Of a stretch of 64,000 bases of DNA, positions 22,741 through 62,339 are shown one piece after another. Location of the stretch: NCBI RefSeq assembly GCF_014200015.1, contig NZ_JACHOT010000010.1, positions 1 through 64,000 of the forward strand. The letters run 5' to 3'. Source of the DNA: Aminobacter niigataensis. GTDB lineage: Bacteria > Pseudomonadota > Alphaproteobacteria > Rhizobiales > Rhizobiaceae. A model generated the notes under the pieces. It did no database searches, had not been told where the DNA came from, and saw nothing but the letters and a program-made list of their open reading frames with translations. The position numbers and the translations under genes are program-made. Within the stretch, counting starts at the first letter, position 1. The number at the start of each line of letters is the position of its first letter.

Positions 22741-22803
22741 TGCCCCTCATCCGCCTGACGGCACCCTCTCCCCGTAAACGGGGAGAGGGTAAGGGTAAGG
22801 GCA
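22741..22803. repeat. Palindromic repeat element (CTCTCCCCGT family), single hairpin
   Basis: The core ACCCTCTCCCCGT-AAA-CGGGGAGAGGGT (22763-22790) is a near-perfect hairpin in the gap between the COG0523 GTPase and WD40 genes. It is flanked by TGCCCCTCATCCGCC and AAGGGTAAGGGCA. The same core occurs twice at 58772-58884. It may also act on the transcript joining the two genes. Confidence 0.85.
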
Positions 22804-40490: not shown

Positions 40491-41441
40491 TCACTTTGCC
40501 GGCAGAGCCAGCGCGGTCATGATCTCGGCTGCGGCAAGGGCGGCGATTACAGCGGGGCGCTTGTCCTTGACTGCGTCGCCGCCGATCGGGCAGACCAGCC
40601 GTGCATACTGCTCGTCGCTGCCGCCGGCCGTCTTGAGGAACCAGCTCCTGAACGTCGCCTTCTTGGTCTTCGAGCCGATCATGCCGACATAGCCGGTGTC
40701 GTCGCGCTTCAGCGCCTCGGCAACGATCAGGAAGTCGAGCGCATGGTCGTGGGTCAGCACCACCACGGCCGAGCCGGAGGGCGCCTCGCGCACCATCTCC
40801 TCCGGAACCGGGGTCAGCCTCACATCAATCTCCGCCGGCATGCCGTCGAGCGCATCGGCGCGGGTCTCGACGACCACCACATTCAGCGGCAGCAAGGCAA
40901 AAGCGGATGCCAGCGCGTGGCCGACATGGCCGCCGCCGAAGACCAGCACATGTGGCAGGGCAGCGTCCGATATTTCGGCCGAAGCGACCAGGTCGGCAGC
41001 CATTGCCTCGTCGACGTGGCGGACGGCAACCTCGACCCGTCCGCCGCAGCACTGGCCGATCTCCGGCCCGAGTGGAATGTCTAGGGTGAGCGTTTCCCTC
41101 CCCCTTGAGGGGAGGGTGGCGGCGAAGCCGCCGGGTGGGGTCGTTTCGACCGGGCTCAACACCACTTGGGCGCTTCTTCCTGAGGTTACCCCCTCTGCCC
41201 GCTTCGCGGGCATCTCTCCCTCAAGGGGGGAGATCGACCCCTTCAGTATCGCCCGCGCGCTGTCGATCGCCATGAATTCGAGCTGGCCGCCGCCGATGGT
41301 GCCGAAGATGCGCTCGGGCGACACCAGCATCCACGCGCCCTTTTCGCGCGGGGTCGAGCCCTTGGCCTCTGCCACCTCGACCAGCGCCACCGAAGGCGCT
41401 GCGTCGAGGAATGCCCGGAGGCGCTTGGCCGTCTTGCTCAC
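40491..41441 (-). CDS. xdhC: Xanthine dehydrogenase accessory protein XdhC with in-frame repeat insertion
   Basis: A 316-residue chaperone that loads sulfurated molybdenum cofactor into XdhB. The XdhC_CoxI domain (FLDAAPSVALVEVAEAKGST, MLVSPERIFGTIGGGQLEFM) and the C-terminal Rossmann domain (VLVFGGGHVGHALASAFALL) are intact, as is EIGQCCGGRVEVAVR. Between ARAILKG and LTLDIPLGPEIGQCCGG lie about 48 residues with no counterpart in the family. They are encoded by a palindromic repeat element (41092-41240) that keeps the frame open. The start overlaps the xdhB stop by four bases. Confidence 0.93.
   Translation of the reverse strand: MSKTAKRLRAFLDAAPSVALVEVAEAKGSTPREKGAWMLVSPERIFGTIGGGQLEFMAIDSARAILKGSISPLEGEMPAKRAEGVTSGRSAQVVLSPVETTPPGGFAATLPSRGRETLTLDIPLGPEIGQCCGGRVEVAVRHVDEAMAADLVASAEISDAALPHVLVFGGGHVGHALASAFALLPLNVVVVETRADALDGMPAEIDVRLTPVPEEMVREAPSGSAVVVLTHDHALDFLIVAEALKRDDTGYVGMIGSKTKKATFRSWFLKTAGGSDEQYARLVCPIGGDAVKDKRPAVIAALAAAEIMTALALPAK
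41092..41240. repeat. Compound palindromic element inserted in frame in xdhC
   Basis: Two hairpin halves face each other: CCTCCCCCTTGAGGGGAGG with GGCGGCGAAGCCGCC at one end and GCCCGCTTCGCGGGC with CTCCCTCAAGGGGGGAG at the other, separated by about 45 bases. The same compound element, in the opposite orientation, lies at 59518-59650 inside the acyl-CoA synthetase gene. Exact ends cannot be fixed without an element-free relative. Confidence 0.9.
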
Positions 41442-57752: not shown

Positions 57753-57787
57753 TGGAGCAGGCCTTGGGAATTGCCGCGCCCTACGTT

Positions 57788-57942
57788 GCCCCCCTCTGGC
57801 CTGCCGGCCATCTCCCCCAAGAGAGGGGAGATCACCTGTCGTCCCGACTTTCGCCAACCGCCAACGTTACAAGAGGTGGGCCGCCGGCGAAGCGCTTGAT
57901 CTCTCCCCTCGTGGGGGAGATGGCCGGCAGGCCAGAGGGGGG
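57788..57942. repeat. Compound inverted-repeat element (GGCCTGCCGGCC family), copy 2
   Basis: Left arm 57788-57832 (CCCCCCTCTGGCCTGCCGGC and on through an AAGAGAGGGGAGATC part) and right arm 57898-57942 are inverted copies of each other around 65 bases. Same family as the element at 56599-56792, with a different spacer. It fills the gap between the alpha/beta hydrolase and caiD genes. Confidence 0.88.
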
Positions 57943-57972
57943 CGAGACGGAACGTAATCACCTCCACGGAGC

Positions 57973-58755
57973 CTACTTCCCCTTCCACACCGGGTCCCGC
58001 TTCTCCGCGAACGCCTTGAAGCCCTCAAGATTGTCCTCCGAGGCGTAGAGCTCGTCCACCGTTGGGAATTGCCGCTTGGTGATGCGGTTCATCGTCTCCT
58101 GGAAACCCATCACCTCGGCCGCGCGCGCCACCTCCTTGATGGCGGCGAAGACCAGCGGCGGGCCGCCGGCGAGCAGCCGGGCGATCTCCCAGACGCGGCC
58201 TTCGAGCTTGTCGGCCGGCATTACCTCGTTGACCAGCCCCCAGCGATGCGCCTCGGCGACATCCATCCAGCGGCCGGTGAGCAGGAGGTCCATCGCCACG
58301 TGATAGGGAATGCGCTTGGGCAGCTTGATGGTCGCGGCGTCCGCCAGCGTGCCGGCCTTGATTTCGGGCAGCGCGAAGCTCGAATGCTCCGAGGCGTAGA
58401 TCAGGTCGCAGGACAGCGCCAATTCGAAGCCGCCACCCACCGCCATGCCGTTGACGCAGGCAATGACCGGCTTGTTGAGGTCGCGTAGCTCCTGCAACCC
58501 GCCGAATCCGCCGACGCCATAGTCGCCATCGACCGCATCGCCGCTTGCCGCAGCCTTCAGGTCCCAGCCGGCCGAGAAGAATTTTTCCCCCGCCGTCTTC
58601 ACTATGGCGATGCGCAGGCCGTCATCGTCGCGGAAGGCCTTGAACGTCTGCCCGAGCAGCCGGGACGTGGCGAGGTCGATGGCGTTGGCCTTGGGCCGGT
58701 CGAGCGTGACCTCGAGGATCACACCCTCCCTGCGGGTCTTGATGACGTCGGACAT
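57973..58755 (-). CDS. caiD: Carnitinyl-CoA dehydratase (CaiD-like crotonase)
   Basis: A 260-residue crotonase, the same length as E. coli CaiD. Highly CaiD-like segments are LDRPKANAIDLATS, GEKFFSAGWDLKAAASGDA, NGMAVGGGFELALSCDLI and the very end FAEKRDPVWKGK. It should interconvert crotonobetainyl-CoA and L-carnitinyl-CoA. GGAGAAAGCGC precedes the ATG at 58755. It is the last gene of a unit with an acyl-CoA synthetase, an acyl-CoA dehydrogenase, carnitine dehydrogenase and BKACE. Confidence 0.9.
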   Translation of the reverse strand: MSDVIKTRREGVILEVTLDRPKANAIDLATSRLLGQTFKAFRDDDGLRIAIVKTAGEKFFSAGWDLKAAASGDAVDGDYGVGGFGGLQELRDLNKPVIACVNGMAVGGGFELALSCDLIYASEHSSFALPEIKAGTLADAATIKLPKRIPYHVAMDLLLTGRWMDVAEAHRWGLVNEVMPADKLEGRVWEIARLLAGGPPLVFAAIKEVARAAEVMGFQETMNRITKRQFPTVDELYASEDNLEGFKAFAEKRDPVWKGK

Positions 58756-58771: not shown

Positions 58772-58884
58772 CCCCTCACCCTTACCCTCTCCCCGTGGAA
58801 AACGGGGAGAGGGGGGCGTCGGCGTCGTGATTTTCCTCCTTCTCCCCGTCATTACGGGGAGAAGGTCCGGTAGGGGATGAGGGG
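58772..58884. repeat. Compound palindromic element (CTCTCCCCGT family) at the acyl-CoA synthetase 3' end
   Basis: CCCCTCACCCTT and GGGGATGAGGGG mark the outer ends. Inside are two hairpins, CTCTCCCCGT/ACGGGGAGAG and TTCTCCCCGT/ACGGGGAGAA, the same core as the single element at 22741-22803. The synthetase reading frame runs into it and its TAA stop (58782-58784) lies inside. Confidence 0.9.
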
Positions 58885-61103
58885 CTGTTTAAGGCCAACA
58901 CCAGCAGCGCATCGGCGATCCAGGCACCCTGCCCTTCGCCACAGACGATCAGCGGATTGATGTCGAGTTCCTCGATACGGTCGGCATGATCGGACACAAA
59001 ACCGGCAATGGCCATTATTGCATCCACGGCCGCACCGACGTCCGCCCTGGCACGGCCACGATAGCCGTCGAGCAGCGGGTACATCTTCAACCCCTTCAGC
59101 GCAGCCTCGACCTCGCCGCGCGAGGCAGGGAGCAGCAGCGTGGCGCTGTCCTTGATGAGTTCGACCAGCACGCCGCCGGTGCCGATGGTCATGACAGGGC
59201 CGAACAGCGGATCGCGGGTGACGCCGACGATCAACTCGGCCACGCCGCCTGAGACCATCTTCTCGACATAGAGGCCGGTGCCGAGCGGCAAAAGGGCTGA
59301 AGCAGCCGCGCCGACCTCCTCGGCATTCTTCAAACTTAACCTGACGGCACCGAGTTCGCTCTTGTGGGCAACGCCCAGAGCCTTGAGCGCGACGGAATAG
59401 CCCAGCGCTTCCGCCGCCGCGATGGCCTCGGCGACGCTCGCCGCACGACGGCCGGCTGGCGCGGCAAGGCCAGCGTCGCGCAGCAAGGACTTGGCAGCGG
59501 CTTCGTCGAGCTGGGTATCCTCCCCCCTCGAGGGGGAGGTGCCCGCGAAGCGGGCGGAGGGGGTAACCTCAGAAGGCACCGCCGACGCATCGTGCACGAC
59601 CCCATCCCGATCGGCTCCGCCGATCGACCCTCCCCTCAAGGGGGAGGGATCGCGCCGCCACGCCTCGCCAATCGTCGCTGCAGCCTCCGCCGCGTCCATC
59701 GCCTCGGCAATCCCCTGCAACGGCACGATGCCGCGCGAAAACAGGTCTGCGGCGTGGTCCTCGGTCAGGTTCTCCGACATCGACGCCACCACGGCACCTC
59801 GCGCGCCATTGGTCTTCAGCGCTACCTCGAAGGCCCGCACGGTCGGCCACCAGTCGGCGTCCGAGCAGCGGTCGTTGCGCGGGAAGTCGAGCACCAGCAT
59901 GTTGAGGTCGAAACCGCCTGACGCCATCGCCGTGAAGGTGGCCGTCATCGCCGGTTCGTCGTTCCAAATGAAGGTGTGGTAGTCGAGCGGATTGGCGACC
60001 GCCACGAAGGCGCCGAGCGTCGATTTTATCCTCGTATAGTGCTCAGGCGTGAGCGCCGGGAAACGCAGCCGCCGGCCCTCGGCGCTGTCGGCCATGACCG
60101 ACGCCTCGCCGCCCGAACAGCTCATCGAAGACAGCGTGAAGCCGGGCAGCGGGCCGACCGCGTGCAGCAGCTTCAGCGTTTCGAGCAACGACGGGATGGT
60201 GTCGACGCGAGCGATGCCCAGCCGCTTGAGGAAGGCATCCGAAGCGGCGTCCGACCCGGCGAGCGACGCCGTGTGCGAGATCGTCGCCTTGCGCGCCTGT
60301 TCGGAGCGGCCGACCTTCATGGCGACGATCGGCTTGCCCAGTTCGCGCGCCCGCGCCGCCAGCCGCTCGAAACCGTCTACGGTGTCGAAGCCTTCGATGT
60401 GCAGGCCAAGGCACGACACGCGCTCATCCTCGATCAGGCCCAGCGCCATTTGGGAAAGGCCGATCTGCGCCTGGTTGCCGGCGGTCATCAGGAAGGCGAC
60501 CGGCAGGCCGCGCTTCTGCATGGTCAGGTTGCAGGCGATGTTGGAGGACTGCGTGATGATGGCAACGCCGCGAGTGCCCGGCGCCAGCCTCTGGCCGCCG
60601 TGCTGGTCGGGCCACAGAAGCGCTCCGTCGGCATAATTGATAAGGCCGTAGCAGTTGGGGCCGATGACCGGCATCTGGCCCGCAACTGTGACGAGTTCTC
60701 CCTGCAGCCGTTCGCCGTCGGCATCGTCGCTGCCAGCTTCGAGGAAGCCGGAGGCAAAGCAGATCGCCCCGCCGGCGCCGCGCTCGGCAAGTTGAGCAAT
60801 CACCTCGATAGTCAGGAAGCGGTTGACGCCGACGAAGGCTGCGTCTGGGGCTGCGGGCAGCTCTGCGACCGAACGGAAAGTCCTGATGCCCTCGACCTTG
60901 TCCTTGGTCGGGTGCACCGGCCAGATGTCGCCGGCAAAGCCCATCTTCAGGCACTGCTTGACCACGGCCGCGGCCTGCGAGCCGCCGAACACCGCAATCG
61001 ACCTAGGCCGCAGCAGGCGTTCGAGGCGCCCTTTACCCTCCCCCTTGTGGAGAGGGTCGACGCGCAGCGTCGAGGTGGGGGTGTCAGAAGTCGAGCAAGA
61101 CAT
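58782..61103 (-). CDS. ADP-forming acyl-CoA synthetase (acetate-CoA ligase family) built with three repeat elements
   Basis: A 773-residue NDP-forming CoA ligase: acid + ATP + CoA gives acyl-CoA + ADP + Pi. The CoA-binding domain begins at LERLLRPRSIAVFGGS, the succinyl-CoA-synthetase-like ligase part has ISHTASLAGSDAASD, and the ATP-grasp domain has VALKALGVAHKSELGAV and PLFGPVMTIGTGGVLVELIK. Palindromic elements encode about 26 residues before the first domain (including the only upstream ATG), about 45 in the interdomain linker, and about 30 at the C-terminus with the stop. The core domains look intact, so the enzyme is probably active. Context suggests gamma-butyrobetaine, crotonobetaine or carnitine as substrate. 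Confidence 0.88.
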   Translation of the reverse strand: MSCSTSDTPTSTLRVDPLHKGEGKGRLERLLRPRSIAVFGGSQAAAVVKQCLKMGFAGDIWPVHPTKDKVEGIRTFRSVAELPAAPDAAFVGVNRFLTIEVIAQLAERGAGGAICFASGFLEAGSDDADGERLQGELVTVAGQMPVIGPNCYGLINYADGALLWPDQHGGQRLAPGTRGVAIITQSSNIACNLTMQKRGLPVAFLMTAGNQAQIGLSQMALGLIEDERVSCLGLHIEGFDTVDGFERLAARARELGKPIVAMKVGRSEQARKATISHTASLAGSDAASDAFLKRLGIARVDTIPSLLETLKLLHAVGPLPGFTLSSMSCSGGEASVMADSAEGRRLRFPALTPEHYTRIKSTLGAFVAVANPLDYHTFIWNDEPAMTATFTAMASGGFDLNMLVLDFPRNDRCSDADWWPTVRAFEVALKTNGARGAVVASMSENLTEDHAADLFSRGIVPLQGIAEAMDAAEAAATIGEAWRRDPSPLRGGSIGGADRDGVVHDASAVPSEVTPSARFAGTSPSRGEDTQLDEAAAKSLLRDAGLAAPAGRRAASVAEAIAAAEALGYSVALKALGVAHKSELGAVRLSLKNAEEVGAAASALLPLGTGLYVEKMVSGGVAELIVGVTRDPLFGPVMTIGTGGVLVELIKDSATLLLPASRGEVEAALKGLKMYPLLDGYRGRARADVGAAVDAIMAIAGFVSDHADRIEELDINPLIVCGEGQGAWIADALLVLALNSPSSPTGPSPRNDGEKEENHDADAPLSPFSTGRG
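59518..59650. repeat. Compound palindromic element in frame in the acyl-CoA synthetase linker
   Basis: CCTCCCCCCTCGAGGGGGAGG and GCCCGCGAAGCGGGC at one side, CCGATCGGCTCCGCCGATCG and CCCTCCCCTCAAGGGGGAGGG at the other, with GGGGGTAACCTCAGAAG between, as in the xdhC copy. It is reversed relative to the coding strand compared with xdhC, yet the frame is open in both. It falls between the CoA-ligase and ATP-grasp domains. Confidence 0.9.
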
Positions 61104-61156
61104 TGTTTCACCCCCACCCGGCCCTGCGGGCCACCCTCCCCACAAGGGGGAGGGTC
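61036..61156. repeat. Compound palindromic element at the acyl-CoA synthetase start
   Basis: ACCCTCCCCCTTGTGGAGAG at one end and CTCCCCACAAGGGGGAGGGT at the other are inverted copies, with GTCGACGCGCAGCGTCGAGG and ACCCGGCCCTGCGGGCC as inner hairpins. It lies between the acyl-CoA dehydrogenase stop (61176) and the first recognisable synthetase codon (about 61027), and contains the ATG at 61103 used here. Confidence 0.9.
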
Positions 61157-61175
61157 GAACAAGAAACCAGATCGC

Positions 61176-62339
61176 TCATCCGCCCACCGCCCTGAGCAGC
61201 GCGCGCGAAATGATGTGGCGCTGGATTTCCGACGTGCCTTCCCAGATGCGTTCGACGCGCGCGTCGCGCCAGATGCGCTCCAGCGGCAGGTCGTCCATCA
61301 GGCCCATGCCGCCATGGATCTGGATCGCCTCGTCGGCGACGAAGGCGAGCATTTCCGTGGCCTTGAGTTTGGCCATCGCCATGTCCTGGTCGGTGACCGT
61401 GCCCTGGTCGTATTTCCAGCCGGCCTCCATCACCATCAGCTCGGCTGCCTTGAGCTCGGTCGCCATGTCGGCCAGCTTGAACGACACGCCCTGGAACTTG
61501 CCGATCTGCTGGCCGAATTGCTCGCGCTGGGCGGCGTATTCGACGGCATGGTTGAGCGCGCGCTCGGCGCGGCCGAGGCAGGTGGCACCCACCTGAAGGC
61601 GCGTCGCACCCAGCCAGCTGTTGGCGACTTCGAAACCCTTGTGCACCTCGCCGAGCACTTGAGCTGCCGGCAGGCGACAATCGTCGAACTCCAGCACCGA
61701 ATTGGTGTAGCCGCGATGCGAGACGTTGCGGTAGCCGTCGCGTACGGTGAACCCAGGCGTGCCCTTGTCGACGAAAAACGCAGTGATCTTCTTGCGCTTG
61801 CCGCGCGGCGACTCCTCTTCGCCGGAGGCCATGAAGACGATGGCGAAGTCGGCGATGTCGGCATGGGAGATGAAGTGCTTGGTGCCGTTCAGCACCCAGT
61901 CGCTGCCGTCCTGGACAGCACTGGCCTTCATGCCGCGCAGGTCGGAACCGGCGCCAGGCTCGGTCATCGCCAAACAGTCCGATTTCTCGCCGCGAATGCA
62001 GGGGAAGAGATACTTCTCGCGCTGCTCCGCCGTGCCGGCGAGCAGGATGTTGGACGGGCGCGCCACGCAGGTCCAGTGCAGCGCGTAGTTGGCGCGGCCG
62101 AGCTCCTTTTCGTAGAGCAGCCAGGTCAGCGTATCGAGCCCGGCACCGCCGACATCAGCCGGCATGTTGGCGGCATAGAGCCCGGCGGCAATCGCCTTTG
62201 CCTTGATCTCCTCGACCAGCTCGCGCCGGAGATGGCCGGTGCGCTCGACCTCGCCCTCGTGCGGATAGAGCTCGTTCTCGACGAACGCGCGGGTGGTGTC
62301 GACGATGAGCTGCTGTTCCTCGGACAGACCGAAATGCAT
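61176..62339 (-). CDS. Acyl-CoA dehydrogenase (probable butyrobetainyl-CoA type)
   Basis: A 387-residue FAD enzyme of the acyl-CoA dehydrogenase family. FAD-binding and family motifs are LAMTEPGAGSDLRGMKASAV, DWVLNGTKHFISHADIADFA, REQFGQQIGKFQGVSFKLAD, IQIHGGMGLMDDLPLERIWR and IWEGTSEIQRHIISRALLR, the last carrying the position of the catalytic base. On context it would oxidise gamma-butyrobetainyl-CoA to crotonobetainyl-CoA, the substrate of CaiD. It starts four bases after the carnitine dehydrogenase stop. Confidence 0.9.
   Translation of the reverse strand: MHFGLSEEQQLIVDTTRAFVENELYPHEGEVERTGHLRRELVEEIKAKAIAAGLYAANMPADVGGAGLDTLTWLLYEKELGRANYALHWTCVARPSNILLAGTAEQREKYLFPCIRGEKSDCLAMTEPGAGSDLRGMKASAVQDGSDWVLNGTKHFISHADIADFAIVFMASGEEESPRGKRKKITAFFVDKGTPGFTVRDGYRNVSHRGYTNSVLEFDDCRLPAAQVLGEVHKGFEVANSWLGATRLQVGATCLGRAERALNHAVEYAAQREQFGQQIGKFQGVSFKLADMATELKAAELMVMEAGWKYDQGTVTDQDMAMAKLKATEMLAFVADEAIQIHGGMGLMDDLPLERIWRDARVERIWEGTSEIQRHIISRALLRAVGG

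Follow-up and report, generated by a model that had tools for sequence, protein, structure and literature searches.

Coding palindromes are already known from several bacteria, as the Rickettsia RPE, the enterobacterial RU repeats and the REPs. The RPE (Ogata et al. 2000, 2002) are palindromes of ~100-150 bp, found between genes and in frame in unrelated protein genes, and absent from the homologues (PMC2229807, PMC10969869, PMC3733652). For the enterobacterial RU-1/2/3 repeats (ERIC, YPAL), Delihas 2007 describes a C-terminal repeat fusion that abolishes the native stop, and YP_0349, in which the repeat encodes most of the N-terminus (residues 4-35) (PMC2759123). GTAG/CGTC REPs, whose 20-40 bp units end in a GTAG or CGTC tag, lie inside open reading frames, with two insertion sites per gene in uvrB and uvrA, a stop supplied by the repeat end, and linkers that tolerate them (PMC3733652). 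Bradyrhizobium REPs have been described from untranslated regions (PMC5082802). In termination-reinitiation, stop and restart codons lie a few nt apart and upstream translation opens hairpins over the downstream start (PMC10666635, PMC6728339); reinitiation is reportedly almost abolished at a stop-restart distance of ~20 nt (PMC10666635).

The locus described here, a synthetase gene of Aminobacter with three palindromic elements, resembles the RPE cases in the size class of the palindromes, in-frame coding and absence from homologues. It differs in the genus, presumably in the sequence families (RPE-1 to RPE-10 in Rickettsia), and in that the start, linker and stop of one gene are involved, with different families or orientations at one slot. 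The RU fusions are alike in that a repeat is fused at a protein end and the stop or N-terminal residues are affected; there, however, one repeat lies at one end, and neither family exchange at a slot nor a mini-ORF relay is among the cases in the available text (PMC2759123). The elements here fall outside the GTAG/CGTC class, being 113-133 bp long and, by inspection, without such an end tag. The start region shares with termination-reinitiation a stop and restart a few nt apart and a hairpin over the start, but in this gene it is largely an inserted repeat that would furnish both the restart codon and the bridging mini-ORF.

The synthetase gene and its neighbours

The window (the whole 64,000-nucleotide stretch analyzed) holds the gene between two others on the same strand.

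61176..62339, minus strand: acyl-CoA dehydrogenase, directly upstream of the synthetase
58782..61103, minus strand: ADP-forming acyl-CoA synthetase ORF, 773 aa, identified by Pfam domains and relatives of solved structure
61101..61103, minus strand: synthetase ATG, in the central loop region of an element hairpin
58782..58784, minus strand: synthetase TAA stop, within a palindromic element (C family)
57973..58755, minus strand: enoyl-CoA hydratase family gene, directly downstream of the synthetase

The single synthetase chain consists of CoA_binding_2, Succ_CoA_lig and ATP-grasp_5 (Pfam), with domains on both sides of the linker; the first-pass annotation had described the core motifs on both sides as intact. 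CoA-binding, ligase and ATP-grasp domains on one chain together with conserved histidines identify it as an ADP-forming acyl-CoA synthetase. H277 and H580, which we take to be the catalytic histidines, are invariant across 35 aligned sequences. Its best relatives of solved structure comprise ADP-forming CoA ligases for 4-hydroxybutyrate and 3-hydroxypropionate, together with a DMSP lyase. An archaeal relative is made of two separate chains, of which 4xyl_A aligns with residues 26-392 and 4xyl_B with residues 532-736 of the synthetase; the linker element lies between the parts that form these chains. Among the neighbours, a carnitine 3-dehydrogenase scored 597.7 bits (cut-off 592), and for the enoyl-CoA hydratase family gene the top model was crotonobetainyl-CoA hydratase, with a score under its cut-off. 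The locus may have a role in carnitine breakdown.

Three palindromic elements in one reading frame

The ORF reads through three palindromic elements, one member each from three dispersed repeat families of the genome, and this central claim of the first-pass annotation stands.

61036..61156, no strand assigned: N-family palindromic element, containing the ATG, ~22 codons and most of a mini-ORF; 38 own-genome matches, both strands counted
59518..59650, no strand assigned: L-family palindromic element, linker residues ~485-529, recognized from own-genome copies and orthologues
58772..58884, no strand assigned: C-family palindromic element, encoding the final 33 residues plus the stop; empty sites in the orthologues L017, L019 and L020

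The best non-self matches in the own genome were 1.5e-26 for the N element, 5.5e-22 and 6.8e-13 for the L element, and 6.7e-36, 8.8e-31 and 7.2e-27 for the C element. None of 200 dinucleotide shuffles of each element folded as stably (z = -10.4, -4.6 and -6.9 for N, L and C). The elements thus have the features of RPE-like coding palindromes: dispersed copies, a long hairpin, in-frame position in conserved genes and absence from homologues. They have presumably been mobile; by eye, no clear target-site duplication was seen at the filled and empty sites read (synthetase, helicase, hydantoinase). An enrichment of the elements for open frames was considered and rejected: with six frames per copy, 37 of 54 N frames were open (expected 30.3), 10 of 18 L frames (10.8) and 14 of 42 C frames (20.2).

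Outside the synthetase, the window holds another L-family copy of 138 bp (41095-41232) and another C-family copy of 50 bp (22752-22801). A long hairpin lies between the hydratase and an esterase gene (57764-57967), for which Rfam gives chance-like microRNA matches only. The Rfam search returned five matches, all to microRNA models under their gathering scores, and these were taken as chance hairpin resemblance.

Several details of the first description were refined. The N element does supply the start, but of the residues 1-26 assigned to it only ~1-22 lie in the element, and the GKGR before the core is flank. The L element does encode ~45 linker residues, as claimed, although these are not 45 added residues: they replaced the native linker, which usually measures 20 aa in Mesorhizobium and 25-27 aa in four element-free Aminobacter, so that the net gain is +20 to +27. 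The C element supplies the C-terminal residues and the stop, with 33 residues where ~30 had been claimed. Comparison with the orthologues supports the view that translation appears both to start and to stop within elements.

Linker and C-terminus among orthologues

Ten Aminobacter genomes were compared, the own genome included. The orthologue set comprised 90 loci, the 10 Aminobacter and the best 80 of 378 relatives; A. aganoensis, A. ciceronei and Aminobacter spp. are among the nearest named relatives of the window in this best 80 of 378. Five duplicates (L041-L045, equal to L014, L013, L015, L016 and L020) were removed, leaving 85 loci.

Linkers were at least 36 aa long in 17 of the 85 orthologues and 19-29 aa long in the other 68. 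The short linkers lack the linker block; two of them (L058, L060) match an element in part. Fourteen of the 17 long linkers matched an element of the own genome (E up to 1e-4), and the other three (L056, L085, L112), without such a match, had a hairpin fold with z of -6.7 or lower. A repeat-free homologue with the extra linker block, which would have spoken against an insertion, was thus not found among the 85. The slot is filled in different ways: the L-family inserts of L011-L015 and those of L046 and L061 are inverted relative to each other, and the inserts of L016, L049, L050 and L100 have the N family as best match. Of two sister species, M. zhangyense (L046) carries an insert and M. soli (L047, L048) has a 20-aa linker.

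A C-terminal element match was found at 11 of the 85 loci. Within Aminobacter, the C family forms the C-terminus in L011, L013, L014, L016 and L018, and the inverted L family does so in L012 and L015; L017, L019 and L020 have no C-terminal element, and their TAG follows directly after the core. The C-terminal tails vary among the orthologues in length and stop. On the core gene tree, in which 40 of 82 inner branches are weak, the linker state (partial ones counted) requires at least 8 changes and the C-terminal state at least 8. Repeated gain of elements is one reading of this pattern, which recombination could imitate.

Divergence was compared by codon position in L011-L015. The two core parts differ per site by 0.048, 0.028 and 0.290, and by 0.097, 0.064 and 0.330, at positions 1, 2 and 3; this third-position excess (0.29-0.33 vs. 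0.03-0.10) indicates purifying selection on the core. The linker insert differs by 0.047, 0.117 and 0.089. No trace of selection on the encoded linker peptide was seen in these five L-family inserts, which have no third-position excess. The insert DNA also diverges less than the core third positions. Within its hairpin, paired columns differ by 0.063 and loops by 0.158; standard pairing was kept in all five species for 7 of 12 variable pairs and broken for 5 of 12. The low divergence of the insert is compatible with a recent insertion, with gene conversion and with a constraint on the RNA. The earlier wording that the gene was "assembled from" three elements is too strong: the core is an ordinary enzyme under purifying selection, with the elements as additions at one hinge and at the two ends.

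Start region and mini-ORF

The synthetase start follows the dehydrogenase stop by 2-3 nt in M. zhangyense and M. soli. Nine of 10 Aminobacter have an intact or eroded N-family element between the two genes.

61108..61179, minus strand: mini-ORF of 23 codons; its ATG overlaps the dehydrogenase stop (ATGA) and its TGA ends 4 nt before the synthetase ATG
61073..61119, minus strand: central hairpin, in which a G-rich SD-like stretch is paired with early coding sequence; predicted in 9 of 9 Aminobacter with an N element

The element ATG occupies the homologous place in the central loop region in these nine and is in frame there despite downstream indels, its distance to the core being 78, 75, 54, 54, 114, 78, 54, 48 and 54 nt; the lengths upstream of it represent all three frames. 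Between the element ATG and the core, five of the nine have no other start codon and four have a TTG. L011 and L013 have an in-frame TTG upstream of the element ATG, also inside the element. In L015, the tenth Aminobacter, another element sits just before an ATG. In the predicted structures the SD-like G-rich stretch is paired in 9 of 9, and the ATG lies in the loop region with its G in a weak inner stem. Covariation in the start hairpin was looked for and not demonstrated: one pair occurs as G-C, G-U and A-U, but 272 of 500 shuffles do equally well.

A mini-ORF of 23-54 codons opens from an ATG or GTG that overlaps the dehydrogenase stop in all ten Aminobacter. From its end to the synthetase start the distances are -4, -3, -4, -2, +4, -2, -2, +8, +4 and +8 nt (L011 to L020), and in M. 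albiziae (L049) the distance is +4 nt. Each of the ten Aminobacter thus has the stop within the ~20 nt of the restart codon that termination-reinitiation allows. Disregarding the mini-ORF, the gap between dehydrogenase and synthetase is 70-82 nt, and 157 nt in L015. Shuffled spacers gave such an arrangement at 4.4 of 11 loci by chance vs. 11 of 11 observed, for rows that are related and an interval that was set after inspection. For L050 the dehydrogenase stop was not found in the start-region comparison.

Two further arrangements were seen. In a Mesorhizobium MAG (L060) the old ATG at the dehydrogenase stop runs in frame straight into an N-family element of which the right half is present, with a right junction nearly identical to that of Aminobacter; this reflects either another result of this kind of insertion or one that is old and shared. 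A nested repeat lies within palindromic elements in the N-terminal region of L016 (~36 nt, in frame, relative to L017) and in the helicase insert of L169, and also occurs at G003:C9:16365 and C26:290406; its 20-base core is present in 3 of 10 Aminobacter genomes, at 4 places in total.

Palindromes in other genes

The synthetase is not a unique case: two further genes of the genus, a helicase and a hydantoinase-type fusion, carry in-frame palindrome inserts. Thirty-one further element sites were examined, with three 22-bp matches (L165-L167) excluded; the composition test applied to them did not pick up L008. The ligase-associated DEXH helicase (G000:C7:67267-69546, L002; TIGR04121, 932.7 bits, cut-off 850) was compared with its relatives L168-L176, L178 and L179. 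An in-frame N-family palindrome of ~36 aa is present in four Aminobacter (G000, G001, G003, G009); an unbroken sequence match points to it in G009, and in G003 the inner arms are in reversed order. The junction is cleanly empty in G002, G004, G005, G006 and G008, and G007 gave no helicase orthologue match. The hydantoinase-type fusion protein (G000:C4:300-3482, L123 and L008; relatives L180-L191) has two in-frame palindrome slots. In its first slot G000 has an L-family element, and G001, G002 and G009 have hairpin-like inserts of other kinds; the insert of G005 is short, G003 and G004 have none, and G006 and G008 lie outside this reading. The second has extra residues in the five species read and was matched to a repeat by search in G000, G005, G006 and G009; of the loci compared for it, L181 yielded a wrong ORF, and L183, L187 and L188 yielded no ORF. 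A motif search at the helicase and hydantoinase sites gave no match for L171, L187 and L188.

Discussion

We consider it probable, at about three in four, that gene-less short palindromes spread through Aminobacter and Mesorhizobium, with turnover by gain, loss and exchange at tolerant sites, including one at which an element provides a new start. The elements would be short palindromic repeats without genes of their own, akin to coding MITE/RPE elements, and retained where a protein tolerates 20-50 added residues. Three such places would exist in the synthetase: the hinge between its halves, its C-terminal end and its boundary with the gene upstream, with elements repeatedly gained, lost and exchanged at each. 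At the junction, a 5' insert may have split the old start, which overlapped the dehydrogenase stop, from the gene body, and the ATG in the element loop may have been taken over as the new start. The old start would now open the mini-ORF, whose ribosome would unfold the hairpin over the SD-like stretch, halt beside the new ATG and reinitiate, preserving the coupling of the operon. This relay, in which the mini-ORF terminates and translation reinitiates at the element ATG, is put forward tentatively. A broader picture, of slots at fixed domain junctions and gene edges where palindromes are installed, swapped and lost in frame, one of them a working initiation device with a mini-ORF handover, is more speculative still and somewhat doubtful.

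Other accounts were weighed against the same observations. Insertion may have been wide, with only tolerant sites persisting, so that start, linker and stop have no regulatory role and the mini-ORF would simply follow from the old ATGA overlap together with a stop in the element. This pure survivorship has close to an even chance: open frames of the elements are overall no richer than in shuffles, the linker insert has no third-position excess, and the C-terminal tails vary in length and stop. It sits less easily with a mini-ORF that ends near the start at all 11 loci tested, via different spacings and stop codons, and with a hairpin over the SD-like stretch that persists despite loss of the right element arm (L013, L014, L018-L020). 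A start region that is merely an annotation effect, with translation beginning downstream and the N element a non-coding 5' leader, draws on a general caution about N-terminal REPs (PMC3733652); it is highly improbable, as five of the nine element-bearing Aminobacter offer no ATG, GTG or TTG on the way from the element ATG to the core, and initiation within the core would delete R29, L31, R32 and P33, invariant in 35 sequences.

Retention at the RNA level, where the hairpins slow or protect the operon mRNA and the encoded residues are a side effect, finds some agreement in the linker insert of L011-L015, which changes less than the core third positions, and in its more conserved paired columns, with 7 of 12 variable pairs standard in all five species. 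Yet the linker element is missing from four Aminobacter and from the majority of Mesorhizobium orthologues, 5 of the 12 variable pairs include a broken pair, and recent insertion or gene conversion would likewise reduce divergence; we regard this account as unlikely.

As to novelty, a search of open-licence PubMed Central papers yielded no account of in-frame palindromes for either Aminobacter or Mesorhizobium, which is not proof of absence, and a term search of PMC3767692 found nothing. Nor did these papers yield a precedent for start, linker and stop in one gene, for element exchange at fixed slots, or for the possible start mechanism. The first-pass annotation knew of no gene with three elements and of none whose start and stop come from an element; for the combination of start, linker and stop the statement holds, while its parts are known (two-site insertion, repeat-supplied or removed stops, N-terminal residues). 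What sets the case apart from a further example is that start, linker and stop are combined in one gene, that elements are exchanged at fixed slots and that the proposed start mechanism is testable.

With preference given to the reading that gene-less palindromes spread and persist at tolerant sites, coding palindromes are now placed in free-living soil bacteria. Filled, empty and differently filled sites in close relatives make an old question testable, whether such palindromes are neutral passengers or a source of new protein and new translation control. The synthetase is a natural example of an operon gene whose start codon seems to have passed to an inserted repeat.
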